From Methylotenera sp. (lineage in GTDB: Bacteria > Pseudomonadota > Gammaproteobacteria > Burkholderiales > Methylophilaceae), in assembly GCF_029946165.1 (NCBI RefSeq), contig NZ_JAQSDZ010000011.1, forward strand, positions 62,001 to 126,000: a stretch of 64,000 bases of DNA, in the 5' to 3' direction. Each line of letters starts with the position of its first letter. The first letter of the stretch is position 1. The position numbers and the translations under genes are program-made. The notes below the pieces were generated by a model. That model was not told the origin of the DNA, searched no databases, and saw only the letters and a list, made by a program, of their open reading frames with translations. Shown here piece after piece: positions 2,944-28,798 of this stretch.

Positions 2944-5427
2944 TTACTTTTCTGTAGCAGCTGCCATGGTACTGCTAAGCATTGCCATAGCAGCAATACT
3001 GATATCAGCAACAAGGATTGATTCTAACCCTCCCATCTGGTTGAGAATAGGCAACGATACCGTCAAACAAAAGTCTTCAGTCGCTGTCGAGAGGTAAATA
3101 TTTGATATATATGGCTTAAGCGTTTCATACGCGGCATAGTAATAAGCTTGTGGACTGCGATCAACGCCCCCTCCTCCTGCTTTAATTTTGCCGTACATGT
3201 TTGGATTAATCCAGTTAGGATATCGTTGTATACCGTTGGCATTAAGTTCAAATATCACCTCAAAGAATGGATAGTCATTGAAGCAGCTATCCATGCAATG
3301 TGAGCCTTCGGAGCGACGATATTTAAGTAGGGATTGCAACGCCTCTAGTGCGCGCGCTTGCCAATCGGAATGAACTTCATGTACCGGTAGTACAAGTCTA
3401 GGAGTAGTATCTTCCACCACAATGATGCTGCCAATATTGGATTTACCTATCTTTTTCAGGTAAGCCGCACGTTCAGCTGCGGCCACACTATTGGATAATA
3501 CGCCTTGGCTGCCATTGACGATTGCGATTGAAATACTGGCAACGGGATGTTCGCCGCCATCTTCTGTGGTAAAGAACCCTCGTTCTAGGTCTGATGCGTC
3601 ATATAAGTGGCTGGCGAGGTCTTGAAAACGATAAATCACATCCAGCAACTTGTCTTCAAGATAGGTATTGATATGATCTAGTATCAATACAAAATCATCA
3701 CCTCCAATGTGGCCAACCAATATCCCTGCGGCGCCAAGAAATTCCTGCCTAACAATTTCTGATAACAGGCGAATCATGGCATCGCCACGTATGAATCCGT
3801 ACCGGTCGTTATAGGCTTTAAAGTGGTCAAGGTCGATATAGACCAATATCGTGTTGGGGTTATTGCGCAAGCTGACATCCAAGGATTGCCGTAATGTTGG
3901 CCCAGTGGTCAACTGACTCAGAGGGTGAAGACTGCCAGTACTCATCTTGCGGCTGATTAACTGTGCCATAATTTCAACCGGCTGTAAAATTCCTATATAG
4001 ATACCATCATCGCCCACCATGACCCAGGGCTCAGCATCGCCACGCTCTAGGTAGAGACCACGTGCCAATAATGATGATGGAGTACGACTGGTAATCATCT
4101 TTGGCAATGCATCGCAATAAGCGCCAAGGGAGTTACTACGTTGGGTAAATACCTTGCCGCGCTTGAGCAAACCGATAGGTCGCAAATTATCCAATACCAC
4201 TGCAACTTCTGTATCAAGGTTCTTCTTAAAAATCGCTCGTGCCTCTTCAATAGAAGTATTCACCTCAATCGTAACCCCGCGCATCACAAATTCTCCAATT
4301 CGGAACTCATCAGGAACATGTGAGCGATGCGCCTCATCCTGCTTAGGCAATTCTGTCACCGAACGTGTCGGCTTTCTTTCAGGTTTTGCAAAATAGTAGC
4401 CCTGTGCATATGCAAGCCCCATATCTAAGCAGAAATTGATGTCTTCTACACGTTCCAAGCCCTCTGCCACAACCGTGCAGCCAAGTCTTTGCGCCATTGA
4501 AATAATCGCTTCCAGCAATACGGTGCGTACACGGCTACCTTGTGCTTCGTGGACAATCGCACGATCTATTTTGATATAGTCTGCACGAACAGCAGCCAAG
4601 GTACGCAAACCATTAAATCCTGAGCCCATGTCATCAAGTGCTATACGCAGGCCCTGAGCACGAATTTGATCACAGCATTCAGCTAAAAGCTCGGGTGATA
4701 CTTTTTCACTCTCAATAATTTCAATGACGACTTCACGTGGCTCAATACCATATTTGCCGATAGTATCCAGCATAAAATTAAGCCAGCGTTTTTTCATGAT
4801 GGTTTGAGGCAGTACATTAATGAAAATGGGCGTTCCTGGTGCAATCGAATTCGCTTTCCCAACCAACGCGCTTTGCTGACAGGCGATATCCAATTCTTCG
4901 CTACATTTAAGCTGACTAGCCAGCTTAAATGACTCCTCGCCATCCAATAATCTTCCAGATGGATTCTCTATTCGGCACAAGGCCTCATACCCAAAAATTT
5001 TGCCGTTTTGTGTGAAATCGACAATAGGCTGGAAATATATCTGCACGTGGGAACTAATATCTTTTAACAACCATGAATGCAGACGTCTGGCATAAAAAGT
5101 GTTGAATGGCATAGTGCCCGCAATCGTCTCTGCAGGATCCATTGCGTTAGTATCTTTTGTGACCGTCACATAAGACTCATCAAGAAGCTGTTCTGGCAAT
5201 AGCTCCGCGAGTCGGTTGAGTATATGAGTCAACGATTTTTCATCATCAAAGTCGAAAATAAAAACAGATTTTTCGGGGTTATGCACATGCTTCAGATCAA
5301 TACTGGAAAACGCAAATGTCTGATCTAATGTATTTAAATATAATTTCATATGCTGGTTTTTCTTCTCTATTGAAATATAGTCTAAGCAGAACCAAGCAAG
5401 ACCTATGCCAATATTGATAGAGAGCAT
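2944..5427 (-). CDS. EAL-CBS-GGDEF c-di-GMP signalling protein with C-terminal Cache/PDC-like sensory region
   Basis: EAL motifs GYEALCRI, EVVIEIIES, DDMGSGFNGL, VAEGLERVED; CBS-like middle; GGDEF-type ILVGHIGGDDFVLIL. An internal Met at 5349 (MKLYLNTLDQ) is a plausible alternative start. Confidence 0.88.
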   Translation of the reverse strand: MLSINIGIGLAWFCLDYISIEKKNQHMKLYLNTLDQTFAFSSIDLKHVHNPEKSVFIFDFDDEKSLTHILNRLAELLPEQLLDESYVTVTKDTNAMDPAETIAGTMPFNTFYARRLHSWLLKDISSHVQIYFQPIVDFTQNGKIFGYEALCRIENPSGRLLDGEESFKLASQLKCSEELDIACQQSALVGKANSIAPGTPIFINVLPQTIMKKRWLNFMLDTIGKYGIEPREVVIEIIESEKVSPELLAECCDQIRAQGLRIALDDMGSGFNGLRTLAAVRADYIKIDRAIVHEAQGSRVRTVLLEAIISMAQRLGCTVVAEGLERVEDINFCLDMGLAYAQGYYFAKPERKPTRSVTELPKQDEAHRSHVPDEFRIGEFVMRGVTIEVNTSIEEARAIFKKNLDTEVAVVLDNLRPIGLLKRGKVFTQRSNSLGAYCDALPKMITSRTPSSLLARGLYLERGDAEPWVMVGDDGIYIGILQPVEIMAQLISRKMSTGSLHPLSQLTTGPTLRQSLDVSLRNNPNTILVYIDLDHFKAYNDRYGFIRGDAMIRLLSEIVRQEFLGAAGILVGHIGGDDFVLILDHINTYLEDKLLDVIYRFQDLASHLYDASDLERGFFTTEDGGEHPVASISIAIVNGSQGVLSNSVAAAERAAYLKKIGKSNIGSIIVVEDTTPRLVLPVHEVHSDWQARALEALQSLLKYRRSEGSHCMDSCFNDYPFFEVIFELNANGIQRYPNWINPNMYGKIKAGGGGVDRSPQAYYYAAYETLKPYISNIYLSTATEDFCLTVSLPILNQMGGLESILVADISIAAMAMLSSTMAAATEK

Positions 5428-11640: not shown

Positions 11641-11686
11641 TCAATATTGAGTTTATATTTTCAACATTATTAGCTCAATATTGATT
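11639..11686. terminator. Inverted repeat between convergent relA and response-regulator genes (possible bidirectional terminator)
   Basis: AATCAATATTGAG (11639-11651) and CTCAATATTGATT (11674-11686), 13-bp perfect arms, AT-rich. Confidence 0.4.
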
Positions 11687-12653
11687 ACTTTATAGTACGA
11701 ATCTTACTAGAAGCTAAAGCCGCAGCGGCCGTTCTTGTTTCTACGCCCAATTTAACAAACACATGCTCTAAGTGTTTATTTACGGTGCGGGGACTTGAAC
11801 CAAGTATGTCACCAATATCGCGACTGGTTTTACCCTTGGTGGCCCAGTACAACACTTCTGATTCGCGTATGGTTAATTTAAATATGGTCATCAATGCTTC
11901 TATCTGAGCGGCATCAGACTCTTCCCGGAGTAATATTACCCACTGCTCACTGTCATTAAGTTCTGCGGGAATAAAGTTTAAACGCCCTCTTCCTGAAACA
12001 ATCATCAAAGTGGATATGTCAGATTGTACTTCGTGAGCAAGTTTAACTTTTTCAATCCAAGATAATACTTGTGGCGGCGTTTTTGATTGAATTTGTGCGT
12101 AATGTTCAGGGAAGTAGCGCTGCATCCATTCCCTTGCAAGAGGTGTTTGCCAAACAATTTTTCCATTATGCGGTGTTATGGCAATTGCCGCTTGGCCAAA
12201 GGCATCTAAGGCACCACGCGCCTGATGCATTAAGCGCGAAGTTTGCATGTGTGCATCTATTCTCGCCAGCACTTCTATAGCTCGTATGGGCTTAGTAACA
12301 TAATCGGTTCCACCCGCCTGAAACGCTGCTACCACATGCTCTGACTCAGTCAAACCCGTCATAAAAATAATTGGAATATGACGCGTATTAATATCTGCTT
12401 TTAGCTTTCTACATACTTCAAAACCATCCATGCCAGGCATGATGGCATCGAGTAAAATAATCCCAGGCTGCGCTTCTAATGCGGCCACTAAGGCAGCTTC
12501 ACCATTATTAGCGACTAACACAGTAAAACCTGATTCATCCAATGCGTCATGTAGTACCGCCAAATTATCGGGCACATCATCGACAATCAGGACAATAGAA
12601 GCATCCTCTCGGCTTGGTTTTAAATTACTCATCAGTATTAATCTCTTCCACAA
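11685..12653 (-). CDS. Response regulator REC + LuxR-type HTH; likely start MSNLKPS at 12632
   Basis: SIVLIVDDVPDNLAVLHDALDESG...IILLDAIMPGMDGFEVCRKL; HTH LTIRESEVLYWATKGKTSRDIGDILGSSPRTVNKHLEHVFVKLGVETRTAAA. Overlaps the stop of the upstream hybrid kinase. Confidence 0.93.
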   Translation of the reverse strand: MWKRLILMSNLKPSREDASIVLIVDDVPDNLAVLHDALDESGFTVLVANNGEAALVAALEAQPGIILLDAIMPGMDGFEVCRKLKADINTRHIPIIFMTGLTESEHVVAAFQAGGTDYVTKPIRAIEVLARIDAHMQTSRLMHQARGALDAFGQAAIAITPHNGKIVWQTPLAREWMQRYFPEHYAQIQSKTPPQVLSWIEKVKLAHEVQSDISTLMIVSGRGRLNFIPAELNDSEQWVILLREESDAAQIEALMTIFKLTIRESEVLYWATKGKTSRDIGDILGSSPRTVNKHLEHVFVKLGVETRTAAAALASSKIRTIK

Positions 12654-15600
12654 ACTTCTTCATGGCAGCTAGCTGAAATTGCTGTGCGAACTTTCTCATA
12701 GCGATAGCAAATACTTTATATTCAACATCTAAGCTTTCTATTTCATCTATTTTTTTAGAAATACCACGTACATATCCAATTTTCATTAGCGCTAACAACT
12801 CATCCAAATAAACTTTGGGTGGCGCAACTAAAATGGGTAAGAGGCTGGACTCTTCGGTTGGCAACGGCAGATTTTCTGACCCGGTAATCCATTCTAGATT
12901 AAGCTGTTTACCCAGCCAATCCAGCAATTCAGACAGCTCTACAGGTTTTAATATAAAGTCCGCCGCACCTATGCCTGCTGTATTTTCTAAGCCTTTATCG
13001 AAAGCATTTGCCGATACAATACCAATCGGCACATCAGATTGCCGCACCTTACGTATGACATAACTAGCCTCCCAGCCATCCATCATAGGCATCGCAAGAT
13101 CCATTAAAATTAGATCAGGATTGAATAATGTATGTTGTTCAAGACACTCTAGACCATTGGCGGCTTCAGCCATTTCAAACCCAAGCGGCTGAAGAAGGGT
13201 AACTAACATTTCCCTATCAATATATTCATTATCTACCACTAGTATTTTTTTTCTTGCGCCAATATAGCCAATACGCTGGGCAGCTAACACGGCTTCTATT
13301 TCTTGAGTTTTATGAATTTGTGGTAAAAATAATTTAATTTTGAATAGGGTTCCCTTCCCTACTACGCTGCTTACACTAATCTCGCCACCCATTAATTGCG
13401 TTAACAATTTACTAATGGTGAGGCCTAACCCCGTGCCGCCTATTCTATCGTTAGCTGCTGCGCTTCCTCTTGCAAATGGCTCAAATACCGTATCAATTTC
13501 ACTGGCTTGTATCCCAGGGCCCGTATCTTCAATCTCAATTTGCACAAGCTCACGTGCATATTGCACCCGAAAAACCACGCCTCCATGCTGGGTAAACTTG
13601 ACGGCGTTACCCAATATATTAATGAGTATTTGGCTTAAGCGCTTTTGGTCAGCGCGCACCATTTTTGGTAATTCACTCGTCACTTCATAGGCAAAATTAA
13701 TTCCTTTATTGCGCGCCTGCAACTCAAACATACTCACAATTTGCTTAATAAATTCTGGAAATCTTAACGGTTTGATATCAAAAGTGAGTTTGCCGCCTTC
13801 AATACGTGCAATATCGAGTGTGCCCTCAATGAGTGAGAGCAGGTGTTCCCCGCTACGCCGTATTACACGAATCGCTTGTAAACGACTATCTGGAATAGAC
13901 GTATCGTTATCTAATAATTGTGCATAACCTAAAATGCTATTTAATGGTGTACGCAGTTCGTGACTAATGCCAGTAATATAGCGGCTTTTGGCTTGGTTAG
14001 CTTGCTCTGCAATTTTACGTGCAAGCTGGAGCTCTGCATCGGTTTTCTGATGAAGCTCGATTTCACGTTGTAATAAACCTGTCTGACGATTAGATTCCTC
14101 TTGCGCTACTCGCCTGCTTTGCCCCGTTAATACCAACCACCAAGCAATAATAGCGCTTGCAAATACAAGTGCAGAAAATATCTTCAGATAGCCAGAACGT
14201 AATTGTGGCAATAAGCTGGCGGCGGTTTGCGCCAGCACTTGACTTTCATGGTAGTAAATTAACCATAGTAATGTACCTAAAAAAGTTAAGGTGACACTCA
14301 TCAGCAGTAAATAGGCACTTAAGCCCGAGTTTAAATACACCCATAAAGTTTTAGGCAATAGCTTTTTTAACGTAGTTTCCCATTGAACGGAAAACTTAGC
14401 GTCTGGTTTACAGGCATCGTTACAACGAGCGTCCAAACAACAACACAGCGAACAAATAAAGCCTTGATAAGCTGGGCAATGCGCCATATCTGGCGTTTCG
14501 TACTCACGCTCACAAACTGTGCATTTAGCGACTCGAGTTGTTGGACTGAATTTAATTGCCTGGCGGGCAATATAATATTTACCTTTAGTGAGCCAAGCAA
14601 TAATAGGCGAAGCGATCAATGCAGTAAATAATGCGATAAAAGCCGAAAACGCCTGTGGAACAGCGCCTAAAACGCCAGAAAATGCTGTGATAGAAAGCAT
14701 AGAAGCCAATAACATGGCACCCACGCCAACGGGGTTGATGTCATATAAATATGCGCGTCTAAACTCAATGCCTTTAGGGCTTAAACCAAGAGGCTTATTG
14801 ATGACTAAATCGGCCACAACGGCAGCAATCCATGCAATAGCTATATTTGAATATAAAGCCAATACCTGCTCTAAGGCTTTAAATACATCTAGCTCCATTA
14901 AAATCATTGCGATGCTGGCATTGAATACCACCCAAACCACGCGTCCAGGGTGGCTATGTGTTAACCGAGCAAAAAAGTTAGACCATGCCAATGAACCTGC
15001 ATAAGCATTTGTCATATTGATTTTAACTTGCGAGATGACAACAAATAACGCTGTCATGCCCAAGGCTAATTCTTTTGAGCTAAATAAATATTGATAGCCC
15101 ACTAAATACATTTGCGTGGGGTTGGTCGCCTGCAAAAATGACATATCACTTTGAATCACCAGATACGCCAATAAAACGCCTGCTGACATTTTTATCATGC
15201 CTAAAAATACCCAACCAGGGCCTGCAGTTAGTACGCCTAAGTTCCATCGCCAACGATTTTCAGGTGTCTTTTCTGGCATAAAGCGAAGAAAGTCGACTTG
15301 TTCACCAATTTGGGGAATTAAGGCCACACCAACCGCAGTTGCAGCACCAAAAAGAAGCAGGTTGAACTCACCCCGCTCGCCAGATGCACCTGCAAACAGC
15401 ATCATGCGTGAGATTATTTCTGGGTCTTGATGCAAGATAGCAAGAAAAGGCATGCACATGAGGATCAACCAAACAGGTTGTGTATACATCTGAATTCGAT
15501 TAATTAATGTAACGCCATGAATTACAAAAGGAATGACGATCAGAGCACTTACTAAGTAACCAATGTAAAGAGGTAGGTGAAAATACAGCTCTAACGCATA

Positions 15601-16074
15601 CGCCATAATGGCGGCTTCTAAGGCAAATAAAATAAATGTGAAAGAGGCGTAAATAAAAGATGAAATAGTAGAGCCTATATAGCCAAAGCTTGCGCCACGA
15701 GTGAGCAAATCCATGTCTAAGCCATACTTAGCCGCATAAAAGCTAATGGGCAGTGCGGTCAGAAAAATAATAACGCCCACAGCCAAAATTGCCCATAGCG
15801 CATTAATTGCCCCGTAATTCACCGCGATTGTGCCACCGATAGCTTCTAAAACTAGGAAAGAGATGGCACTTAAAGCGGTATTTGAAACACGGAAAATTGA
15901 CCACTTACGAAATGATCTGGGGGTGAAGCGTAGCGCGAAATCCTCAATAGATTCATTCGCCACCCACGTGTTGTAGTCACGGCGTATTTTAATGATACTC
16001 TGAGTTGGCTTGGCGTTTTCCAATAGCGCCAATGACAAATGATTAGGGTTCAATTCAACATCCGATTGCATCAA
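12625..16074 (-). CDS. NCS1-family permease - Cys-rich segment - hybrid sensor histidine kinase/receiver fusion
   Basis: N-terminal ~500 aa NCS1 (cytosine/purine/allantoin permease)-like: FTPRSFRKWSIFRVSNTALSAISFLVLEAIGG...LLTRGASFGYIGS; Cys cluster at residues 518-555; HisKA GISHELRTPLNSILGYAQLL; HATPase ILGNAVKFTQHGG, DTGPGIQ, GTGLGLTISK; REC ILVVDNEYIDREML...LILMDLAMPMMDGWEA. Confidence 0.92.
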   Translation of the reverse strand: MMQSDVELNPNHLSLALLENAKPTQSIIKIRRDYNTWVANESIEDFALRFTPRSFRKWSIFRVSNTALSAISFLVLEAIGGTIAVNYGAINALWAILAVGVIIFLTALPISFYAAKYGLDMDLLTRGASFGYIGSTISSFIYASFTFILFALEAAIMAYALELYFHLPLYIGYLVSALIVIPFVIHGVTLINRIQMYTQPVWLILMCMPFLAILHQDPEIISRMMLFAGASGERGEFNLLLFGAATAVGVALIPQIGEQVDFLRFMPEKTPENRWRWNLGVLTAGPGWVFLGMIKMSAGVLLAYLVIQSDMSFLQATNPTQMYLVGYQYLFSSKELALGMTALFVVISQVKINMTNAYAGSLAWSNFFARLTHSHPGRVVWVVFNASIAMILMELDVFKALEQVLALYSNIAIAWIAAVVADLVINKPLGLSPKGIEFRRAYLYDINPVGVGAMLLASMLSITAFSGVLGAVPQAFSAFIALFTALIASPIIAWLTKGKYYIARQAIKFSPTTRVAKCTVCEREYETPDMAHCPAYQGFICSLCCCLDARCNDACKPDAKFSVQWETTLKKLLPKTLWVYLNSGLSAYLLLMSVTLTFLGTLLWLIYYHESQVLAQTAASLLPQLRSGYLKIFSALVFASAIIAWWLVLTGQSRRVAQEESNRQTGLLQREIELHQKTDAELQLARKIAEQANQAKSRYITGISHELRTPLNSILGYAQLLDNDTSIPDSRLQAIRVIRRSGEHLLSLIEGTLDIARIEGGKLTFDIKPLRFPEFIKQIVSMFELQARNKGINFAYEVTSELPKMVRADQKRLSQILINILGNAVKFTQHGGVVFRVQYARELVQIEIEDTGPGIQASEIDTVFEPFARGSAAANDRIGGTGLGLTISKLLTQLMGGEISVSSVVGKGTLFKIKLFLPQIHKTQEIEAVLAAQRIGYIGARKKILVVDNEYIDREMLVTLLQPLGFEMAEAANGLECLEQHTLFNPDLILMDLAMPMMDGWEASYVIRKVRQSDVPIGIVSANAFDKGLENTAGIGAADFILKPVELSELLDWLGKQLNLEWITGSENLPLPTEESSLLPILVAPPKVYLDELLALMKIGYVRGISKKIDEIESLDVEYKVFAIAMRKFAQQFQLAAMKKFVEEINTDE

Positions 16075-16172: not shown

Positions 16173-16739
16173 CTAACTCAATAATAAGTAGCTACCCGCA
16201 AGCACCAGTAGCCAAGCAAAAGAGTTGTTAATCCAGCAACCAATTTTAATGCGTTGACTAGCCATCATAAAACCTACGCCATGCAGCATAGTCGTTGCGA
16301 AAAGCATCCCTCCAAGGATAGCGAAGTTGGATTGTGACTGAAGTTCTACACCATGCGCCAACCCGTGAAATAAAGCGAATACTGCGGTAAGGCTCAACTG
16401 CATAACCTTATTTATAGGTAAACTAATCATCAATAGGACACCCATCGCCATTACGCTGGCAGTAACAGCCATTTCTACACTTGGTAAATTTAAGCCTAAG
16501 AAACCTAACGCAGCGCCTATCGTCATGATGACAATAAAAGTTGCAGGTAACTGCCAACGCGCTTTGCCACCTAGCTTAGCGGCCCAAAAGCCAATTGCCA
16601 GCATCACCATTAAATGATCCCAACCTGTGAGAGGGTGCATAAAACCTGCATATGCATTACCTAAACCATGCCCAGGATGAGCAATAGCCATACTGGAAAA
16701 CAGTGAAAATAAAGTTGCTAATGTGATTTGTTTTTTCAT
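16173..16739 (-). CDS. ureJ: HupE/UreJ family protein
   Basis: HPGHGLGNAYAGFMHPLTGWDHLMVMLAIGFWAAKLGG signature; downstream of ureG. Confidence 0.9.
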   Translation of the reverse strand: MKKQITLATLFSLFSSMAIAHPGHGLGNAYAGFMHPLTGWDHLMVMLAIGFWAAKLGGKARWQLPATFIVIMTIGAALGFLGLNLPSVEMAVTASVMAMGVLLMISLPINKVMQLSLTAVFALFHGLAHGVELQSQSNFAILGGMLFATTMLHGVGFMMASQRIKIGCWINNSFAWLLVLAGSYLLLS

Positions 16740-16749
16740 ATCTTTGCTC

Positions 16750-17385
16750 CTAAAGCATCAAGCCTTGTTTTTCAATAAATTTAACAATTTCTTCTAAGCC
16801 TTGCCCAATTTTTAGGTTTGTAAAAATAAATGGGCGTTCGCCACGCATACGTTTGGCATCTCTATCCATTACTTCCAAGGATGCACCTACCATTGGCGCT
16901 AAATCTATTTTATTGATTATAAGTAAGTCAGATTTAGTAATGCCTGGTCCGCCCTTGCGAGGAATCTTTTCACCTGCAGCAACATCAATCACATAGATAG
17001 TTAAGTCTGAAAGTTCTGGGCTAAAAGTTGCGGCAAGATTATCGCCACCGCTTTCAATAAAGACAATATCTAAGGCCTCAAAACGGGCGCATAGCTGCGA
17101 AACGGCCTCGAGGTTCATCGATGCATCTTCTCTAATTGCCGTATGCGGGCATCCACCAGTTTCCACCCCAATAATACGGTCTGGTGTCAGTGCTTCATTA
17201 CGTGTTAAAAACTCGGCATCCTCTTTGGTATAAATATCATTGGTCACTACCGCAATGTTATAGACCTCGCGCAAACGCAGACAAAGCGCCAAGGTTAAGG
17301 CTGTTTTACCCGAGCCGACCGGCCCGCCGATGCCGACACGTAAGGGTTCTGTTTGAGTATTAGGCTTTAGCTTTGTAGAATTCAT
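16750..17385 (-). CDS. ureG: Urease accessory GTPase UreG
   Basis: [45 protein letters not shown]. Confidence 0.97.
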
Positions 17386-18071
17386 GATCTAAATAATCGA
17401 CTATATTGGGTTTCATGGCGACACCCAGCAACGCTGAGGCCAGGGACAAAATTACTAATGGCAACATTTTCTATACGCATTGCCTGTGCTACACAACTTG
17501 GCAAACTTTCACCTATTTCCAATAAGATTTTTTGACCTGCAACTTGACCAAGTGGAACAGCTTTCATAGCTGCGCTGACTTGGTTTTCTACCCAAGACCA
17601 AGCATAGGCATGCAACATATCTTGAACAGGAATTTCCCACTCATGGGCGATACCTGCGTAAACCGTAGGAAAAGCAGGCGCTTCAAGCGCATTCATTTTA
17701 GCCATAAACTCTGCTGGCAACGTACCAACGTCATTGAGTAAACGTCGGAGTGAATAGCCCATCTGACGGCTTTCTGCTAAAGACTCCGCAGTATCACGCC
17801 CTGCTTGAAACTTTACATCCCAATCAATGATCGTGTCCATGTCTCCGACTTGCCAGGCTTGAAACATGCGATAAAGTATCGGCAGCTCGTAACGTCCTTG
17901 ATAAAGGTCTAGCACGTCAATTATCCAATTTTTAGCGCTCGCTTGATGATGCACATCGCCGCATTCAATAGCCCATTCTAAACCTTGAGAATAACTATAT
18001 GCACCGACAGGCAACATCGGGCTAGCAAGTTGCAATAATCGACTGAGCGCGATGTTAGATTGCTTGAGCAT
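17382..18071 (-). CDS. ureF: Urease accessory protein UreF
   Basis: [27 protein letters not shown]. Confidence 0.95.
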
Positions 18072-18561
18072 GCGGCATTAACCTTTTAGATGGCAGTTTA
18101 TGATAATTGTCGTCATCGCCACCATGTCGATGACCACCGCCATAGGCACCGGCTTCTGGCTCGAAAGGTGCACTTTGGTTAATGGTAGTCATGCCTAGAC
18201 CAATTAGCATTTCATTTAATACGTGATCTTGCTCTAATCGCAACCAGCCATCGCCGACTTGCAAAGGTACATGACGATTACCTAGGTGATAAGCGGCACA
18301 CATGAGCGCCTGCGATGTTTTTGCGGTCACGTCAGTGACAGCTTGTGGCGCAGCAATAATCTCAACAATTCGACCATCATCAGCTTCAAGTAGGTCACCA
18401 CCGCGTAATATTGTGCCACGTTCAAGCATTAAGGCCGCTTCCAGCCCAGATTCCAGAGTCACACGCAGGCGACTTTTTTGCCGTAAATCAAAGGGTAGTA
18501 CCAATTGGTCACTTACTTTAATTTGAGAAGATGGGTCAAGACGCTTGTTAATATTAATCAT
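18055..18561 (-). CDS. ureE: Urease accessory protein UreE (His-rich C-terminus)
   Basis: AAYHLGNRHVPLQV; GGGHRHGGDDDNYHK tail; position in ure operon. Confidence 0.95.
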   Translation of the reverse strand: MININKRLDPSSQIKVSDQLVLPFDLRQKSRLRVTLESGLEAALMLERGTILRGGDLLEADDGRIVEIIAAPQAVTDVTAKTSQALMCAAYHLGNRHVPLQVGDGWLRLEQDHVLNEMLIGLGMTTINQSAPFEPEAGAYGGGHRHGGDDDNYHKLPSKRLMPHAQAI

Positions 18562-18573
18562 ATAAGTTCATGC

Positions 18574-20277
18574 CTAAAACAAGAAGTAACGTTGTGCCAT
18601 TGGCAATACACTCGCTGGCTCACAGGCTAATAAAATTCCGTCTGCACGCACAATATAAGTTTCAGGGTCTACATCAATTTTAGGCATATATCCGTTATGA
18701 ATCATGTCTGCTTTTCTGACGATGCGAGTGCCACGAACAGGCACTAGGGTTTTATTTAAATTAAGCGCCGCCACAGCAGGATTATGCAAAGCTGCTTGTG
18801 AAACAAACGTGACTGAAGTTTTAAGTCCGCCCCCATAAGCGCCAAACATATGGCGATAATGCACTGGTTGCGGTGTTGGAATAGAGGCGTTTGGGTCGCC
18901 CATTGCGGCTGCGGCAATCATGCCGCCTTTTAGAATAGTCGATGGTTTCACGCCAAAGAATGCTGGTCGCCATATCACTAAGTCAGCTAATTTTCCTACC
19001 TCAATTGAACCTACTGTATCAGCAATGCCATGTGTTAGCGCAGGGTTAATTGTATATTTGGAAATATACCGTTTCACGCGAAAGTTATCATTGTTAGCAG
19101 AATCTTCAGCTAAAGCGCCACGTTGCACTTTCATTTTATGCGCGGTTTGCCATGTGCGGATAATTACTTCACCTACGCGCCCCATCGCTTGCGAGTCAGA
19201 TGACATCATAGAAAATGCGCCTAAATCATGCAAAATATCTTCTGCGGCAATGGTTTCGCGACGAATGCGGCTTTCAGCAAAAGCAATGTCTTCCGCAATT
19301 GCAGGGTCTAGGTGATGGCAAACCATGAGCATATCCAAATGCTCATCGATAGTATTGACGGTAAATGGACGTGTAGGATTTGTCGATGATGGCAATACAT
19401 TGGCGTAACCTGCCGCTTTAATAATGTCTGGCGCGTGCCCGCCGCCCGCACCTTCGGTATGAAAGGTATGAATAGTACGGTCTTTGAATGCTGCAATCGT
19501 TGTTTCTACAAAGCCAGATTCATTCAAAGTGTCAGAGTGAATCGCCACTTGAATGTCCATTTCCTCGGCTACATTCAAACAATTATCAATGGCGGCAGGC
19601 GTTGTACCCCAGTCTTCGTGTAGCTTTAATCCAATCGCGCCCGCTTCAACTTGCTCACGCAAAGGCTCAGGTAGACTCACATTACCTTTACCTAGAAAAC
19701 CTAAGTTCATTGGGAATGCATCAGCCGATTGCAACATACGATGAATATGCCAAGGACCTGGCGTGCAAGTGGTCGCAAATGTGCCCGTGGCTGGCCCAGT
19801 GCCGCCGCCTAGCATAGTTGTCACGCCAGACATCAGTGCTTCTTCTATCTGTTGCGGGCAAATAAAATGGATATGCGTATCAACCCCCCCAGCGGTCACT
19901 ATCATGCCTTCACCTGCAATAATCTCGGTACCTGCACCAATCGCAATGGTTATCGCAGGTTGAATATCAGGGTTGCCTGCTTTACCAATGGCAGAAATAC
20001 GTCCGTTTTTAATCCCAATATCCGCTTTAACAATTCCCCAGTGGTCAATAATTAGGGTATTCGTAATCACCGTATCAGCGACATCTTTAGCACATAACTG
20101 GCCTTGACCCATGCCATCACGAATCACTTTGCCGCCGCCGAATTTAACTTCCTCACCATATAGCGTGTAGTCTTTTTCTACTTCAATCCAAAGCTCGGTA
20201 TCGGCTAAACGCACTTTGTCGCCAACGGTTGGGCCAAACATCTCTGCGTAGGCTTGCTTGTCTATTTTCACGCTCAT
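18574..20277 (-). CDS. ureC: Urease subunit alpha
   Basis: [30 protein letters not shown] (carbamylated Lys motif); [15 protein letters not shown]. Confidence 0.98.
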
Positions 20278-20582
20278 TTGAGTGCTCCCATGACCTTGCC
20301 CGCAAAGCCATATACTTTCCTATCGCCAGCCAGCGCTACCAACTCTACGGTACGTGTTTGACCGGGCTCAAAACGCACAGCAGTGCCTGATGCAATATTT
20401 AACCTAAATCCATAAGCCGCTTGCCTATCAAAACTTAAAGCTTCATTAGTTTCAAAAAAGTGATAATGCGAACCTATTTGTATTGGGCGGTCACCTTTGT
20501 TTGATACATCTATAGTCACTGTGGCTCTTCCGACGTTAAGGCTAATATCACCCTTTGCTATTTTCATTTCACCTGGAATCAT
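20274..20582 (-). CDS. ureB: Urease subunit beta
   Basis: [19 protein letters not shown]...[17 protein letters not shown]. Start chosen at 20582 (AAAGG upstream); the ORF track extends to 20600. Confidence 0.96.
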
Positions 20583-20596
20583 AACTACCTTTCTGA

Positions 20597-20722
20597 GCAA
20601 AAATGGTCAGCATTAAGCCAGACAAGGCGCGCGTAAAAAAAGTACATCGCGGCGTATAACAAATATGTAAGGAGTGTTTTTTTATAAGCAACGCAGTATG
20701 GCAACATGGCGATCATTTTTTA
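20597..20722. repeat. Imperfect palindromic repeat-like insertion between ureA and ureB
   Basis: Outer arms AAAAATGGTCAGC...GCCAGACAAGGCGC and RC AAAAATGATCGCC...GCCATACTGCG; the only gap of this size among the ure structural genes; right arm reaches the ureA stop codon. Confidence 0.5.
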
Positions 20723-21022
20723 TGGAATTGGGTGGTGAACAGTGACAAGCTTTGTCCCATCGGGAAAGGTTGCCTCAATCTGAATATCAGGGATCATTTC
20801 TGCAATGCCTTCCATGACATCATCACGCGTCAGCAAAGTTGTACCGTAGCTCATAAGTTCAGCCACTGTTCTACCGTCACGCGCACCTTCCATAATGGCG
20901 GCTGAAATAAGCGCGATAGATTCTGGATAATTAAGCTTTAAACCACGCGCCTTGCGACGTTCTGCAAGTAAGCCAGCAGTAAAAATAAGTAGCTTATCTT
21001 TCTCTCTAGGGGTTAATTCCAT
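20720..21022 (-). CDS. ureA: Urease subunit gamma
   Basis: [34 protein letters not shown]; start chosen at MELTPREK (ORF track begins 21040). Confidence 0.97.
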
Positions 21023-21065
21023 ACAGTTAATTCCATTCAAACACTTTCTTTTAAATTTTAACTAT

Positions 21066-21959
21066 TTACGTGTTCCAGATTCTAGGTCTTGTGACTTCTA
21101 GCCCTGCATACCAAGGGCGCAAAATTTGCCATAACAACTCAAAATATTGTCGTGCACATTGCGCAGATTGACCAATATATCTTGCAGAAAATATCTCTGG
21201 CATCGCAGTCACACCATATTTAGCCTGCATATCCAAGGCTAATTTTGGCTGTATTTCTCTACATGCCGCTAATACTTCATCTGGCACTTTACCAGCAGCA
21301 ATTACAAAACTTGCTGAGACTGCATTGCCATGTAAACCCACTATCGACTGCATCACTTTATGATCTGGCTCCAAAAATCCCAGCTCATTCCATATCAGCT
21401 TATTATTTCGCCGAATACTCAAACCTTGATGCAAGCTACCTGTTTGCCAAAGCTCTTTTTGCGCTTGGCGACCAAAACAAAGCACTTCCCATCCCGCATA
21501 TTTGGCCTCTGCTTCCAAATTTACTTCTGAGCTAAACTTAACTTGGGCACCATCAAACAAAATATTTTCTTGTGGCAACCACTCAAAACAAGTATTTTTC
21601 CCCAAATTAAATTTCAAGTACTGGCAGGCTTGCTGACCATTAGCTTTATACCATTTACCTGCACCTGGCGTAGTGAGCAAGGCATATGCGTTCTGATTAA
21701 GACTCACATTAAGTGTGAGTGAATCTCCACCCGCTACGCCACCAGGTGGATGCACCACAACCCCATGACAAACCGCATCACCTTCTGGGTGAAGTGATTT
21801 CTGCAACACCAAAGGACCTATATGCACATTTTTCGCTAAATAACTCCGCTGAAGTCGTTTTGAAAAATTCAAATTTAAGCATGCTTCCCAGCGCTTAAGT
21901 GCAGGTGTGTCCTGAGCTACAGGGCTGTTGCTTGGTCGTGTGCTTGAATCATCCATCAC
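21066..21959 (-). CDS. ureD: Urease accessory protein UreD
   Basis: VVHPPGGVAGGDSLTLNVSLNQNAYALLTTPGAGKWYKANG. Confidence 0.95.
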   Translation of the reverse strand: MMDDSSTRPSNSPVAQDTPALKRWEACLNLNFSKRLQRSYLAKNVHIGPLVLQKSLHPEGDAVCHGVVVHPPGGVAGGDSLTLNVSLNQNAYALLTTPGAGKWYKANGQQACQYLKFNLGKNTCFEWLPQENILFDGAQVKFSSEVNLEAEAKYAGWEVLCFGRQAQKELWQTGSLHQGLSIRRNNKLIWNELGFLEPDHKVMQSIVGLHGNAVSASFVIAAGKVPDEVLAACREIQPKLALDMQAKYGVTAMPEIFSARYIGQSAQCARQYFELLWQILRPWYAGLEVTRPRIWNT

Positions 21960-21993: not shown

Positions 21994-22683
21994 TCAAACT
22001 GATAAATAACCTTTAATTTTCGCAGCGTCTACATTTTCTCGTGTATCTTCATGAATGAACTTGCCTTTATCAATGACAATAATCCGATCTGCAATTTCCA
22101 TGGTAAAACTCAACACTTGCTCTGAAACAATAATGGTAATTTCTCGCATTTTGCGAATCTCATTTAATACTTTAGCAATATCTTTGATGATAGATGGCTG
22201 AATACCTTCTGTTGGTTCATCTAGTAACAAGACCTTAGGGTTAGTCACTAACGCACGAGCAATGGCGAGTTGCTGCTGTTGACCGCCAGATAAGTTACCA
22301 CCCTTGCGTTTACGCATGTCGTACAACACAGGAAAAAGTGCATAAATATCTTCTGGGATTTCACGTGTTTTAGATTTTTCCAAGCCTGTTTCTATGTTTT
22401 CCTGTACGGTCATATTTGGAAAAATCATACGACCTTGCGGCACATAGGCTAAACCTTTTGCTACACGTTGATAGCTATCATCACCTTCTAAACTAACGCC
22501 ATCAACAACGGCTTTTGTCGTTTTGCTGGGCAAAATACCCATGAGTGATTTAAATAGCGTGGTTTTACCCATGCCGTTACGACCCATGATTGCAAGCGTC
22601 TCATTTTTATTAGCTGTAAAGTTAAGCCCTTGTATCACTTGGCTTTGACCATAACTTACTTGCAGATTTTCAATTTCAAACAT
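21994..22683 (-). CDS. urtE: Urea/amide ABC transporter ATP-binding protein UrtE
   Basis: Walker A GRNGMGKTT, signature LSGGQQQQLAIARAL, LLLDEPTEGIQPSII (LivF/UrtE type). Confidence 0.93.
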   Translation of the reverse strand: MFEIENLQVSYGQSQVIQGLNFTANKNETLAIMGRNGMGKTTLFKSLMGILPSKTTKAVVDGVSLEGDDSYQRVAKGLAYVPQGRMIFPNMTVQENIETGLEKSKTREIPEDIYALFPVLYDMRKRKGGNLSGGQQQQLAIARALVTNPKVLLLDEPTEGIQPSIIKDIAKVLNEIRKMREITIIVSEQVLSFTMEIADRIIVIDKGKFIHEDTRENVDAAKIKGYLSV

Positions 22684-22718
22684 ATCAAGTCTCCTAATGG
22701 GCGGGTTATTGGTTGAAC

Positions 22719-23462
22719 TTAATGTCCAAGATAAACCTCAATTACTTTTTCATCTTCTTGCACTTGGTCCATAGGCCCTTCAGCTAAGATTTTTCCTTGG
22801 TGCAATACGGTAACTTTGTGAGCAATTTTCTTTACAAATTCCATATCATGCTCAATCACCAGTACTGAACGATTATTACTTATTTTGTTGAGCAACTCAG
22901 CTGTTTGATCGCGCTCTTTTGCACTCATCCCAGCCACAGGCTCATCAAGCATTAATAGCTGAGGGTCTTGCATCAGTAGCATACCAATCTCTAACCATTG
23001 CTTTTGACCATGGCTCAATAAGGCAGCTTCCATGTCTAAGAAATTAGTTAACATGATTTCTTCGGCGATTTTTAACACTTGCTCTTTCACTTCTGCCGTA
23101 CGCTTAAAGAATAAGCTCCCCCAAACACTGCGACCTTTAGGGTAAGAGACTTCTAAATTTTGATACACCGAAAGGTTTTCATAAATTGACGGTGTTTGAA
23201 ATTTACGCCCCACGCCTTCGCGCACAATTTCATGTTCTGAAAGTTTAGTGAGTTCATGGTTCATAAACTTAATCGAGCCGTTTGTCGATTTAGTTTTGCC
23301 ACAGATTAAATCTAATACGGTGGTTTTGCCTGCGCCATTTGGGCCAATGACAACCCTCAACTCATTTTTATCGATATACATTGTCAGGTTATCTACGGCC
23401 TTAAATCCATCAAACGAAACCGTTAAATCTTCAATGGCTAGCACAAAGTCTGTATTACTCAT
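22719..23462 (-). CDS. urtD: Urea/amide ABC transporter ATP-binding protein UrtD
   Basis: GPNGAGKTTVLDLICGKTK; LSHGQKQWLEIGMLLMQDPQLLMLDEPVAGM (LivG/UrtD type). Confidence 0.93.
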   Translation of the reverse strand: MSNTDFVLAIEDLTVSFDGFKAVDNLTMYIDKNELRVVIGPNGAGKTTVLDLICGKTKSTNGSIKFMNHELTKLSEHEIVREGVGRKFQTPSIYENLSVYQNLEVSYPKGRSVWGSLFFKRTAEVKEQVLKIAEEIMLTNFLDMEAALLSHGQKQWLEIGMLLMQDPQLLMLDEPVAGMSAKERDQTAELLNKISNNRSVLVIEHDMEFVKKIAHKVTVLHQGKILAEGPMDQVQEDEKVIEVYLGH

Positions 23463-24652
23463 GCTTTCGCTCCTTCAATGTTAGTCACACCAATATCATT
23501 TGCCATTTTTTTATCAGCGTCTTTCTTAGTAATATCACTTGGCATTTCAGCTACTATCACACTAGACTTTTTTTTAAAGAAGTTAAGTTTATGGCTGTAT
23601 TTAGCCCAAATGCCAGCTAGTCCGTCAGGAAAGAACATCACAACAGCAATAAACAACCCACCCATAATGAAAAGCCAGAGCTCTGGGTAACTTTCTGAAA
23701 AAAATGTTTTACCGAAATTAACAAATAGGGTACCGTACACCGCACCAATTAAGGAAGCGCGACCACCCACTGCACAGAAAATGACCATTTCAATGGATGG
23801 CACAATACCTACAAAAGATGGCGACATGAAACCAACTTGTAGTGTAAACATGGCACCACCAACTGCTGAAATCATGGCTGCTAGACAGAAAATGAAAATC
23901 TTGAAATTTGATACGTCATAGCCAGAAAAACGCACGCGTTCTTCTTTATCACGCATCGCTAGTAACAACATACCGAACTTACTATTCAACACATATTTAG
24001 AAAGTAAGATTGCACCAAACAATAGAAAGCCATTGAGATAGTACAAAATGTATTTCGCGCTGTCGTTACGTGTATCCCATCCCCACACTGTTTTAAGGTC
24101 GGTAATTCCGTTAACACCACCTGTAAAACCTTGTTGACCCACAATCAAAATACTTAATATCAGTGCAATGGCTTGCGTGATAATTGCGAAGTAAACACCG
24201 CCTACACGACGTTTAAACATGGCAAAGCCAATTAAGTAAGCAAATAAAGCGGGGATTGTTAATATGATTAATATTGTTAAAGGCAAACTCTTGAACGGCT
24301 CCCAGAACCAAGGTAATGAGGTGATTTGGTTCCAGTCCATAAAGTCTGGAATGCCAGGCGTGGTTTGTATTTTGGTGGTTATAGGATCTGAGGCTTCAAG
24401 CTTCATAAACATTGCCATGCCATAACCGCCTAAACCAAAGAATATACCCTGCCCTAAGCTTAAAATACCGCCATTACCCCATAACAATACCAAGCTCACG
24501 GCTACAAATGCGTAAGTGAGGTATTTTCCAACCAAATTTAATCTAAAAATATCAACACCTAGCGGCAACACTACAAAGATAATCGCGGCAAGTACAGCTA
24601 AGCCAACCAACCCCTCTTTGCCACCAACCAATTTACTTAAGGATGTGTTCAT
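23459..24652 (-). CDS. urtC: Urea/amide ABC transporter permease UrtC
   Basis: LivM-like; GNGGILSLGQGIFFGLGGYGMAMFMKLE. Confidence 0.93.
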   Translation of the reverse strand: MNTSLSKLVGGKEGLVGLAVLAAIIFVVLPLGVDIFRLNLVGKYLTYAFVAVSLVLLWGNGGILSLGQGIFFGLGGYGMAMFMKLEASDPITTKIQTTPGIPDFMDWNQITSLPWFWEPFKSLPLTILIILTIPALFAYLIGFAMFKRRVGGVYFAIITQAIALILSILIVGQQGFTGGVNGITDLKTVWGWDTRNDSAKYILYYLNGFLLFGAILLSKYVLNSKFGMLLLAMRDKEERVRFSGYDVSNFKIFIFCLAAMISAVGGAMFTLQVGFMSPSFVGIVPSIEMVIFCAVGGRASLIGAVYGTLFVNFGKTFFSESYPELWLFIMGGLFIAVVMFFPDGLAGIWAKYSHKLNFFKKKSSVIVAEMPSDITKKDADKKMANDIGVTNIEGAKA

Positions 24653-24699
24653 GCGTATTCTCCTGTCTGTTTACTTAAACTATCTATATGCCAAATCAT

Positions 24700-25617
24700 T
24701 TACTTACGAAGTTTTGAAGCAAACAAGCCTTCTGGTTTCATCATTAAGATGCCAACAATGACCAACAACGTAGAGACCTTACCCATAGAGCTAGTCATAA
24801 AGAACTGCAAGATAGATTGAGCTTGTGCGATACCAAAAGCCGAGGCAATCGTACCCATCAAACTAGCAGCACCACCAAACACCACCACCATAAAGCTATC
24901 TACAATATAAAGCGTACCTGTGGTTGGCCCAGTAGAGGCAATCGTGGTAAATGCAGCTCCTGCAATCCCAGCAATTCCACAACCTAAGGCAAACGTTACA
25001 CGGTCCACTTTTTGCGTATTGATACCAACAGCGCCAGCCATCACACGATTTTGTACCGTTGCGCGTACTCTTAAGCCCCAGCGTGAGCGGTACATAAACA
25101 TGTAAACACCAGCAGTCACTAACAAGGCAAGTATCATCACAAATACACCGTTAATCGGTATGTCGATATCGGGTGTTGGTTTGAATGAACCCAACATCCA
25201 TTCAGGTAATTCAGCACTAACTTCTTTTGCGCCAAAAGTCGAACGAAATGATTGCTGCATCACTAAACTCAACCCCCATGTCGCTAATAGCGTGTCTAAG
25301 GGGCGTTTATAGAGATGCCGAATCATAATAAATTCAATAAAATATCCCAACGCGAACGCTAGAATAAAGGCCAAAATAATGGCAAAAACAAAGTAATAAT
25401 TAACAAAACCATAAGTCGTTGCAACTTTAGAAAGCATCACTGTGGTGTAAGCACCGATGGTCATAAACTCACCGTGCGCCATATTGATTACGCCCATTTG
25501 CCCAAAAATAATGGCTAGGCCAAGTGCCATTAGCAACAATACGGTAAACATACTCAGGCCTGAAAAGCCTTGCATTACCATGATATTGCCTATATCTGCC
25601 ATCGAATATCCAAACAT
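24700..25617 (-). CDS. urtB: Urea/amide ABC transporter permease UrtB
   Basis: LivH-like; GLAIIFGQMGVINMAHGEFMTIGAYT. Confidence 0.93.
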   Translation of the reverse strand: MFGYSMADIGNIMVMQGFSGLSMFTVLLLMALGLAIIFGQMGVINMAHGEFMTIGAYTTVMLSKVATTYGFVNYYFVFAIILAFILAFALGYFIEFIMIRHLYKRPLDTLLATWGLSLVMQQSFRSTFGAKEVSAELPEWMLGSFKPTPDIDIPINGVFVMILALLVTAGVYMFMYRSRWGLRVRATVQNRVMAGAVGINTQKVDRVTFALGCGIAGIAGAAFTTIASTGPTTGTLYIVDSFMVVVFGGAASLMGTIASAFGIAQAQSILQFFMTSSMGKVSTLLVIVGILMMKPEGLFASKLRK

Positions 25618-25716
25618 ACGGCCTCCTACATAATCGCTACTAAAAATAAAAACTTATTTATGCTTAGATTGCAGCAACTTATTGCTAAGTTGCTGCATCT
25701 TCAAACTAAGCTAATA

Positions 25717-26961
25717 CTATTGATAACCTTTTGGGAATGGATCTGGTTTGATGTAGCCAGAGGTGTATACCACTTTTGCTTGACCATCTTTGCCCCATTG
25801 ACCAATACGTAACTTGGTTGTTAAGTGATGGTTTTTCTCAACAGTCACAGAACCTTCTGGTGCGTCTTTGAACACATAACCTGGTAATGCTGCTTGTACT
25901 TTATCTACATCAAAGCTACCAGCACGTTCAACTGCTGCTTTATATAACCATGGGCCTAAATACGCGGCTTGTGTTACATCGCCAATCACGGATTTTTCGC
26001 CGTATTTTGCTTTGAATGCAGTTACAAATTTCTTGTTTTCTGGATTATCCTGAGATTGAAAGTACTTCATGGCTGAGTAGAAACCAGCTAAGTTTTCACC
26101 ACCAATACCTAATACCTCGTCCTCTGTGACAGAAATCGTTAACATTGTTTGTTTCGTTGAATTTAAGCCTGCTGCATTCAACTGTTTAAACCATGCAACG
26201 TTACTACCACCCACCACAGCCGCGTAAATGACGTCTGGTTTTTTAAGTTTGATTTTGTTAATCACAGAACCAAATTGTGTATCCCCCAAAGCAATGTACT
26301 CTTCACCAACTACTGAGCCATGCAAATGCTGCTCAATATGTTTACGTGCGATTTTCATTGAAGTACGTGGCCAAATATAGTCAGAACCAATGAGGTAGAA
26401 AGTTTTAGCTTTTTTCTCTTTAGCAATCCAGTCCAAACCAGCTAGAATTTGCTGTGTTGCTTCTTGGCCTGTGTAGAACACGTTTTTAGATTGCTCTAAA
26501 CCTTCATAGAACGTTGGGTAAAAAAGCAAACCATTTTCTTTTTCAAATACTGGAAGTGCCGCTTTACGTGATGCTGATGTCCAGCAACCCATCACCGCTG
26601 CCACTTTATCTGAGGCAAGTAATTTTTTTGCTTTTTCAGCAAAAGTTGGCCAGTCTGACGCGCCATCTTCTTGAATCACTTCAATCTTACGACCCAAAAT
26701 ACCACCCATGGCGTTAATTTGCTCAATCGCTAATTTCTCAGCCTGAATAGAGCCAGTTTCACTGATTGCCATCGTGCCTGTAGCTGAATGTAAGATACCA
26801 ACTTTAACAGTTGTGTCTGTTACAGCTAGACCTGTAGTCATTACCTTAGCTGTTGAGGTGTCAGCAGCAAAAGCAGTATTAGTTAAAATACCGGCCGAAA
26901 GAAGTGCAGCAGCTAAAGCGCCACCAACTCTCATAAAGTTACGCCTATTTAAATTACTCAT
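25717..26961 (-). CDS. urtA: Urea/amide ABC transporter substrate-binding protein UrtA (FmdD-like)
   Basis: Signal peptide; VKVGILHSATGTMAISETGSIQAEKLAIEQINAMGGILG; GGAG-type RBS supports ATG at 26961. Confidence 0.93.
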   Translation of the reverse strand: MSNLNRRNFMRVGGALAAALLSAGILTNTAFAADTSTAKVMTTGLAVTDTTVKVGILHSATGTMAISETGSIQAEKLAIEQINAMGGILGRKIEVIQEDGASDWPTFAEKAKKLLASDKVAAVMGCWTSASRKAALPVFEKENGLLFYPTFYEGLEQSKNVFYTGQEATQQILAGLDWIAKEKKAKTFYLIGSDYIWPRTSMKIARKHIEQHLHGSVVGEEYIALGDTQFGSVINKIKLKKPDVIYAAVVGGSNVAWFKQLNAAGLNSTKQTMLTISVTEDEVLGIGGENLAGFYSAMKYFQSQDNPENKKFVTAFKAKYGEKSVIGDVTQAAYLGPWLYKAAVERAGSFDVDKVQAALPGYVFKDAPEGSVTVEKNHHLTTKLRIGQWGKDGQAKVVYTSGYIKPDPFPKGYQ

Positions 26962-27046
26962 CACTCTGTCTCCTAAATTTAAAAAATAAAAAAACCACAA
27001 CTAAACTCATTTACTTCTTCTAACATTTACATCATTTTTTAGTGCT

Positions 27047-27385
27047 TTAATGCGATAACATCCAAGGTCTTGCTGTCTTTTTGGTTTGCATTTGCAACGC
27101 CGCTTTGCCTGTTTCTGGGTTTACCTTTGTGCTTGTTTTGCACGTGTGTGAACCAGCACAGCCACAGCTTGAACGTTTTGCTACTTTCGGATCATGCGCA
27201 GATTTTTCATTCCGTTCATGTGCTACACGCTGCGTTCTATCCATGACGGATAAGCGAGGTGCTGAAAGAATGCGCGGACTTTCGCAACCGCATTCATCAC
27301 ATAACGCAGGCTCACTAGATTCGCTCATTTTTCTAAGTGCAGTAAAAACGCCGCAGGTATCACATTCATATTCATAAACTGGCAT
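27047..27385 (-). CDS. fmdB: FmdB family zinc-ribbon protein
   Basis: MPVYEYECDTCGVFTALRKMSESSEPALCDECG; adjacent to formamidase. Confidence 0.92.
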   Translation of the reverse strand: MPVYEYECDTCGVFTALRKMSESSEPALCDECGCESPRILSAPRLSVMDRTQRVAHERNEKSAHDPKVAKRSSCGCAGSHTCKTSTKVNPETGKAALQMQTKKTARPWMLSH

Positions 27386-27412: not shown

Positions 27413-28642
27413 TTAGCTGGTTTTAGCAGTATCAATGCCTTGTTTCACCATCACTTTTGGCCCATCCGCATTTGGCTTCATATCGAAATCAAAAATCTCA
27501 GTTGGTAACCATAAAGTAGCGCAGGCATTAGGAATATCTACAATGCCGCTGATATGACCTTCGATAGGTGCTGTGCCTAAAATAGAGAGCGCTTGCGCAC
27601 CGGTGTAACCAAATTTCTTCATATACTCAATGGCATTCAAACAAGCTTGGCGATAAGCTTCATTCACATCTAAGTAGAGCTGCTTGCCTTGCTCATTGAC
27701 CGAAATACCTTCAAAAATGATGTAGTCTTTATAAGTTGGCGTGAGCACACTTGGTTCAAAAATAGGGTTTTTAATGCCGTATTTCTTCACGCCGTCTTTG
27801 ATTAAGCTGACTTTGATGTCTAAATAACCAGCCATTTCAATAGCACCACAGAAAGTGATTTCGCCATCGCCTTGTGAGAAGTGAAGGTCACCCATAGAGA
27901 GACCGCCATCTTTCACATACACAGGGAAATAAACCTTTGAACCTTTGGTTAGATTTTTAATATCGCAGTTGCCACCATGTTCACGTGGCGGCACTGTACG
28001 TGCGCCTTCCATAGAAGCTTTTTTCGCAGCCTCACCAGTTAATTTACCCATGACTGCAGAAGATGGGTTAGGTGGCAATGCCAGCGCAGGAACACGGTCA
28101 GGTTCTGTAGCAATCAAATCACCTTCACGTTGATTCCATTTCTCCAATAACTCTTTTGAAGGTAAGCAGCCGATTAAACCTGGGTGCATAATGCCGGCGA
28201 ATCTAACGTTTGGCACGTGGCGTGATGTGGTATAAATGCCATGAAAATCCCAAATAGATTTACGTGCTTCAGGATATTGATCAACTAAAAATCCGCCGCC
28301 ATTTTCCTTAGCGAAAATGCCGTTGAAACCCCACTGACTATCTTCAAAAGTGCCTACATCTAAAATTTCAACCACCATTAAATCGCCAGGTTCAGCACCT
28401 TCTACGCCAATTGGGCCACTTAAGTAATGTACTTGTGTTAAATCTACATCGCGTACGTCATTGGCGCTGTCATTGTTGCCAATTTGGCCGCCTGTCCAGT
28501 CCATGCACTCAACACGAAACTCATCGCCAGGTTTAACCATGGCAATCATAGGTAAATCAGGATGCCAACGATTATGAATTTGGCCTTCCTGCTCCCAAGG
28601 TTTTTTGTCTAAATCTAATTTAACTAACGTTTTCATTGGCAT
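27413..28642 (-). CDS. fmdA: Formamidase (acetamidase/formamidase family)
   Basis: DFHGIYTTSRHVPNVRFAGIMHPGLIGCLPS; FSQGDGEITFCGAIEMAGYLDIKVSL. Confidence 0.95.
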   Translation of the reverse strand: MPMKTLVKLDLDKKPWEQEGQIHNRWHPDLPMIAMVKPGDEFRVECMDWTGGQIGNNDSANDVRDVDLTQVHYLSGPIGVEGAEPGDLMVVEILDVGTFEDSQWGFNGIFAKENGGGFLVDQYPEARKSIWDFHGIYTTSRHVPNVRFAGIMHPGLIGCLPSKELLEKWNQREGDLIATEPDRVPALALPPNPSSAVMGKLTGEAAKKASMEGARTVPPREHGGNCDIKNLTKGSKVYFPVYVKDGGLSMGDLHFSQGDGEITFCGAIEMAGYLDIKVSLIKDGVKKYGIKNPIFEPSVLTPTYKDYIIFEGISVNEQGKQLYLDVNEAYRQACLNAIEYMKKFGYTGAQALSILGTAPIEGHISGIVDIPNACATLWLPTEIFDFDMKPNADGPKVMVKQGIDTAKTS

Positions 28643-28782: not shown

Positions 28783-28798
28783 TACGTCAAATTGCGTA
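28783..28798. promoter_or_regulatory. Candidate operator TACGTCAAATTGCGTA upstream of fmdA
   Basis: Imperfect palindrome in a block shared with the porin upstream region (see 30675-30690); ~140 bp upstream of the fmdA ATG. Confidence 0.55.

Follow-up and report, generated by a model that had tools for sequence, protein, structure and literature searches.

The Locus and the Sensor Gene

The subject of this analysis is a window of 64,000 nucleotides from Methylotenera sp. (contig NZ_JAQSDZ010000011.1, positions 62,001 to 126,000), in which one open reading frame (ORF) of 1149 amino acids (aa), at 12625-16074 on the minus strand, encodes an NCS1-like permease fused to a hybrid histidine kinase. 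This sensor gene is the penultimate member of a run on the same strand, which begins with a porin gene and continues with fmdA-fmdB-urtABCDE-ureDABCEFG-ureJ-sensor-response regulator (RR). The porin, which has the position of fmdC, lies at 29393-30538 and was identified from a weak ExtI porin match and from its occurrence in the same place in relatives. NCBIfam models recognised the formamidase FmdA (27413-28642), the zinc-ribbon protein FmdB (27047-27385), an fmdDEF-type urea/amide ATP-binding cassette (ABC) transporter encoded by urtABCDE (21994-27000), and the urease genes in the order ureD-A-B-C-E-F-G (16750-21959); Pfam recognised ureJ (HupE/UreJ, 16173-16739), which immediately precedes the kinase gene. 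The last gene of the run (11685-12653) encodes the cognate RR, which is of the LuxR/NarL type, with a Response_reg domain and a GerE helix-turn-helix, and which overlaps the stop codon of the kinase gene. Both the overlap with a LuxR-type regulator and the presence of ure, urt and fmd genes beside the sensor had been proposed in an initial annotation made from the sequence alone, and both are upheld here.

The sensor ORF is intact, without any break. Its first codon is TTG 16074, and the ATG at 16071, the very next codon, is the likelier start. The protein consists, in order, of an NCS1-like permease, an eight-cysteine linker, two transmembrane helices, HisKA, HATPase_c and a receiver. Pfam places HisKA, with the phospho-acceptor H705, at aa 695-761 (13792-13992), HATPase_c at aa 809-917 (13324-13650), and Response_reg, with D992, at aa 944-1052 (12919-13245), all on the minus strand. 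Neither H705 and D992 nor the remaining catalytic positions vary among 35 aligned relatives; the sensor is a hybrid histidine kinase in which all the catalytic residues are present. The two extra transmembrane helices (about aa 588-650, 14125-14313, minus strand), which run into the dimerisation helix in a model of aa 501-690, correspond to hydrophobic peaks at about aa 588-606 and 632-650. The domain order given in the initial annotation is therefore confirmed by Pfam, fold and profile; that annotation had missed the eight-cysteine linker and two palindromes, at 28783 and 30675, which are described below. An Hpt phosphorelay domain was also sought: the C-terminal extension of the window sensor has no histidine at all, and none is conserved in this region of its relatives. 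The N-terminal part of the sensor is 97% identical to its counterpart in Methylotenera sp. MAG003.

An NCS1-like Permease Module

The nature of the N-terminal module (aa 45-500; 14575-15942, minus strand) is less simple than the initial annotation, which called it NCS1, had supposed. The Pfam model for this family, PF02133 (Transp_cyt_pur), does not match the window sensor even at E<=10, so its gathering cut-off is not reached, and it matched none of 35 relatives of the sensor. Since PF02133 misses the sensor, fold and profile were used instead to judge kinship. An AlphaFold2 model of aa 1-690 (predicted local distance difference test score, pLDDT, 75; predicted template-modelling score, pTM, 0.72) was searched with Foldseek against the PDB, and the top five matches were all NCS1 proteins (Mhp1 and CodB), with a best E-value of 1.4e-8 and template-modelling scores to the target of 0.66-0.79. 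Moreover, hhalign aligned the sensor family with the PF02133 alignment at 97.9% (E 4e-13, 385 columns), aa 45-209 match a cytosine-permease model of NCBIfam (E 2e-5), and a kinase-less homologue, 44-47% identical, clears the PF02133 cut-off (31.8 versus 23.5 bits). Searches of PDB sequences with the permease domain or its profile matched nothing meaningful. An SLC5 identity was rejected (hhalign 4.2%; no match to PF00474, SSF). As modelled, the N-terminus has a LeuT fold closest to Mhp1 and CodB, and the earlier assignment stands by fold and profile and fails by the Pfam model. Because PF02133 is negative but four other lines are NCS1-like, we use the term NCS1-like for the module, assign it to a divergent clade and refrain from listing it in the Pfam NCS1 family.

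In Mhp1, W117 and Q121 are substrate residues and S312 and T313 are Na+ ligands. Alignments with Mhp1 and CodB put an invariant E153 at the position of Q121 and L149 at that of W117. One of these ligand positions is occupied in the alignments by an invariant K351 (they disagree by one residue), and the S312/T313 ligands are not kept in the sensor. The candidate pocket residues of the module (E153, Q255, E258/Q259, N353 and N356) are as invariant as the cysteines of the linker. Judged from these alignments, the pocket would be small and polar and is probably not Na+-coupled.

Conserved Linkage to Urea and Amide Genes

The distribution of the sensor was determined in a sample of 399 Pseudomonadota species genomes. 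A match was found in 55 of them, nearly always in the fused form and in other classes as well as that of Methylotenera; plasmid and replicon records gave further matches in named alpha-, beta- and gammaproteobacteria. Neighbours were mapped by tblastn in 20-kb stretches, with scoring confined to the window's own genes. An RR gene lies just downstream of the sensor gene in 53 of the 55 relatives, and urt, ure or fmdA falls within the stretch at 52 of the 55 loci (46 with urt, 36 with fmdA, 12 with ure). As a control, 20 stretches of 20 kb elsewhere on the same contigs contained no urt/ure/fmdA cluster and only one UrtE-like ATPase. The linkage between sensor and nitrogen genes, which the initial annotation had suggested checking in relatives, is conserved. 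Among 60 Methylophilaceae genomes, FmdA is present in 21 of the 26 with the sensor and in none of the 34 without it (Fisher p 8e-12). At two loci (L148, 457-3114, and L158, 469-3153), the permease and linker are joined to another kind of kinase, NtrB-like and non-hybrid, and fmdA is adjacent.

Among Klebsiella plasmids the sensor is frequent, with a match in 342 records; annotations given to it are ‘ATP-binding protein’ and ‘ArcB’. One record, the Klebsiella variicola plasmid NZ_CP127499, was read over a whole cassette, in which urtABCDE-fmdA is divergent from the sensor. On pSymB of S. meliloti, the sensor/RR pair adjoins dctABD, about 8 kb from urtA.

These neighbours bear on the ligand. The initial annotation had proposed a nitrogenous substrate, which the neighbourhood narrows to urea and short-chain amides; allantoin, hydantoin and nucleobases become less favoured. 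The sensor might nonetheless respond to one of these, or to ammonia, with the urea genes as just one output: nucleobases, allantoin and hydantoin are substrates of NCS1 relatives, and ammonia sensing is common in nitrogen control. We consider this unlikely in view of the recurrence beside the pair of urt with fmdA, and of ure, albeit a recurrence scored only against the genes of the window, and of the alignment of the Mhp1 substrate residues with L149 and E153.

Further evidence comes from homologues without a kinase. One lies directly after ureFG (locus L105, 1480-3102); another, which carries the annotation ‘allantoin permease’, is encoded first in a complete urease operon on a plasmid of Acinetobacter ursingii (L220, 7950-9557); a third is divergent from the fused sensor in Acinetobacter baumannii, with one palindrome between the two (L218, 10174-15450); and a fourth precedes fmdA, with a palindrome before it (L109). 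In a tree of the permease module, which is unrooted as the outgroup is too distant, the kinase-less forms cluster together, separate from the hybrid kinases. Judging by the genes around the kinase-less relatives, urea/amide is the likely substrate throughout the permease clade.

These homologues also raise the question of whether the sensor is a true transceptor, in which the NCS1-like domain moves urea or amides and signals from transport rather than from binding alone. The invariant pocket residues are common to the module and to the kinase-less homologues, which resemble ordinary permeases in urease operons, and CbrA both transports histidine and signals (PMC7096432, PMC13022988). However, Ks-Amt5 shows that a fused transporter may lose transport (PMC5764959), and most loci already encode a separate permease or the ABC transporter Urt. 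A transceptor is possible but, in our view, rather doubtful.

The Eight-Cysteine Linker

Between the permease and the last two transmembrane helices, at about aa 518-557 (14404-14523, minus strand), lies a linker with the motif CxxC-x11-CPAY-x4-CSLCC-x5-C-x3-CK. In 144 of 144 sequences all eight cysteines are conserved, a count to be read with the caveat that the search motif itself demanded several of them, C533 not being among those demanded. A second model, of aa 501-690, for which one row from a plasmid record was left out of the alignment, has a pLDDT of 87 and shows a knuckle, two hairpins and a helix, an arrangement resembling that of treble-clef/RING fingers. The linker matched no domain of Pfam or PHROG, and a Foldseek search with the model returned RING, LIM and PHD fingers, none of them below E 0.5. 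Since this support from Foldseek is weak, the reading of the linker as a treble-clef/RING-like metal finger is a prediction from the modelled topology. The CxxC...CxxC core alone is retained in three kinase-less homologues and is therefore not kinase-specific.

The finger might be the sensor, for zinc, nickel or redox state, with the permease domain as its anchor. The invariance of the eight cysteines, some of them imposed by the search, would suit such a role, as would the nickel requirement of urease. Against this, most relatives stand beside urt-fmdA without urease (36 fmdA versus 12 ure among the 55 loci), the pocket residues are equally invariant, and the four-cysteine core also occurs in kinase-less permeases. 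We consider a sensory finger highly improbable.

A Palindrome at the Promoters

The intergenic regions between urtA and a divergent sensor gene have in common a 16-bp palindrome, TACGY-N6-RCGTA. The exact palindrome is present in 33 of 45 such regions, against 0.065 expected under a first-order Markov model; it occurs only at the 8-base spacing and not at neighbouring ones, and the control stretches, 400 kb in all, contain none. Of the 99 palindromes in 2.94 Mb of neighbourhoods, 92 lie <=450 bp upstream of the sensor gene, urtA, the porin gene or fmdA. The palindrome was spotted by eye in a first set of regions; the window itself provides independent data, as do the genomes of the family and the plasmid records. 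The window contains exactly two, against 0.07 expected: TACGCAATTTGACGTA (read on the minus strand) at 28783-28798, 141 bp upstream of the fmdA start, and TACGCAATATTGCGTA at 30675-30690, 137 bp upstream of the porin start. In all 18 other Methylophilaceae examined, the palindrome precedes the porin gene by 82-139 bp, and a separate fmdA palindrome, where there is one, comes second after the porin site. It also lies upstream of the sensor gene where this is divergent or separate, between the sensor and the kinase-less permease in Acinetobacter baumannii, between the sensor and urtA on the Klebsiella plasmid, and, on pSymB of S. meliloti, 98 bp ahead of urtA. It was not found at the two loci with the NtrB-like kinase. 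This distribution supports a tie between the sensor/RR pair and the fmd, urt and porin promoters, and we predict from the sequences that TACGY-N6-RCGTA is the operator bound by the RR.

The contact between RR and palindrome is a prediction, and a genome may encode many LuxR-type regulators, so that another of them could bind the site, the linkage then reflecting only shared nitrogen control. Yet it is this RR that recurs beside the palindrome, in Acinetobacter too, and the palindrome also precedes the sensor gene itself where that gene is divergent or separate; we therefore think a different regulator quite unlikely.

Three further observations concern the genome. A small Adhesin_E-type ORF (28873-29289) is divergent from fmdA, and one palindrome lies in their common intergenic region. 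Five other palindromes, for a genome total of seven, lie outside the window (L275-L278 and L281). Elsewhere in the window, an ORF at 2944-5427 has an unusual domain order: EAL at the N-terminus is followed by a central GGDEF and then, at the C-terminus, by a weak dCache match below the Pfam cut-off.

A Probable Receptor for Urea and Short-Chain Amides

We consider it probable that the sensor is a membrane receptor for urea and short-chain amides, derived from a repurposed NCS1-like permease, that induces the porin, fmd, urt and ure genes via the RR. A ligand in the LeuT-fold pocket would shift the permease domain, and the eight-cysteine finger and the two extra helices would relay this movement to the kinase. 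H705 would then be phosphorylated, and the phosphate would pass to the adjacent LuxR-type RR, either by a direct route or following competition with the internal receiver. Bound to TACGY-N6-RCGTA, the phosphorylated RR would turn on the fmdC porin gene and fmdA-fmdB-urtABCDE-ureDABCEFGJ, and also the sensor/RR pair at the end of the same gene run. Four parts of this scheme we infer: the identity of the ligand, the path of the signal, the contact of the RR with DNA, and the direction of control, namely activation.

Several observations weigh against such a receptor. PF02133 does not match the window protein, and the confidence of the AlphaFold2 model is middling. Three of the 55 loci lack these neighbours by the thresholds set, two of the three being on short stretches. 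The exact palindrome is missing from 12 of the 45 intergenic regions, though all 12 have a match at 6-7 of 8 positions, and some relatives have it ahead of the sensor gene or urtA but not ahead of the ure genes.

Relation to Known Systems

Transporter-kinase fusions are already known, CbrA and Ks-Amt5 among them, and have been termed rare (PMC13022988); the characterised ones that we found use SLC5 or Amt. The SLC5-STAC histidine kinases CbrA, CrbS and RpuS (PMC13022988, PMC5715377, PMC9100948) join a LeuT-fold transporter to a kinase, as here, and CrbS is likewise a hybrid kinase, with a LuxR-type RR and an inverted-repeat site. In contrast to these, the window sensor is not SLC5, and its DNA motif and likely substrates differ; no STAC-like match was found between transporter and kinase, where the cysteine finger and two long helices stand instead. 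CbrA is proton-coupled, its Na2 site being filled by a lysine, K196 (PMC13022988), with which K351 of the window sensor may be compared. Ks-Amt5, an Amt-histidine kinase of an anammox bacterium (PMC5764959), is also a nitrogen-compound transporter repurposed as a kinase sensor, but it is a trimer with the Amt fold, no linker domain and a simple kinase. Mhp1 and CodB have the fold of the sensor module at only 16-18% identity; they lack a kinase, and the sensor keeps neither the Na+-ligand positions nor the stacking tryptophan. GrtK, an ammonia-sensing kinase (PMC12918730), was ruled out as a relative, being a 427-aa PilS-like kinase with six transmembrane helices.

The literature search, largely confined to openly accessible papers, turned up neither a paper describing a fusion of NCS1 with a kinase nor an experimental study of this large, widespread sensor group, in agreement with the earlier remark that no characterised member was known. 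One genome paper describes a nameless hybrid kinase and a LuxR regulator beside urtABCDE (PMC13296017), and this kinase likely belongs to the same family.

The porin, formamidase, putative regulator and urea/amide ABC transporter of the window are those of fmdCABDEF in Methylophilus methylotrophus. According to PMC10781810, which cites Wyborn 1996 and Mills 1998, this cluster is inducible by formamide and urea, and FmdB is the putative positive regulator named for it; the literature search found no description of a sensor kinase for it.

The balance, in our view, tips slightly towards the sensor being the first receptor for urea and short-chain amides of a new transporter-kinase class, which combines an NCS1-like permease, an eight-cysteine metal finger and a kinase, is widespread in Pseudomonadota, occurs with urt-fmdA targets on Klebsiella plasmids too, and is possibly itself a permease. 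The palindrome at these promoters is new here. If this is true, a third transporter family would join the kinase fusions and bring with it a new linker domain, a predicted operator and an apparent class of ligand, and the sensor would offer the missing sensor for the induction of fmdCABDEF by urea and formamide in methylotrophs. Moreover, its kinase-less relatives in urease operons, of which one now bears the name ‘allantoin permease’, are probably urea permeases of a hitherto unrecognised family.

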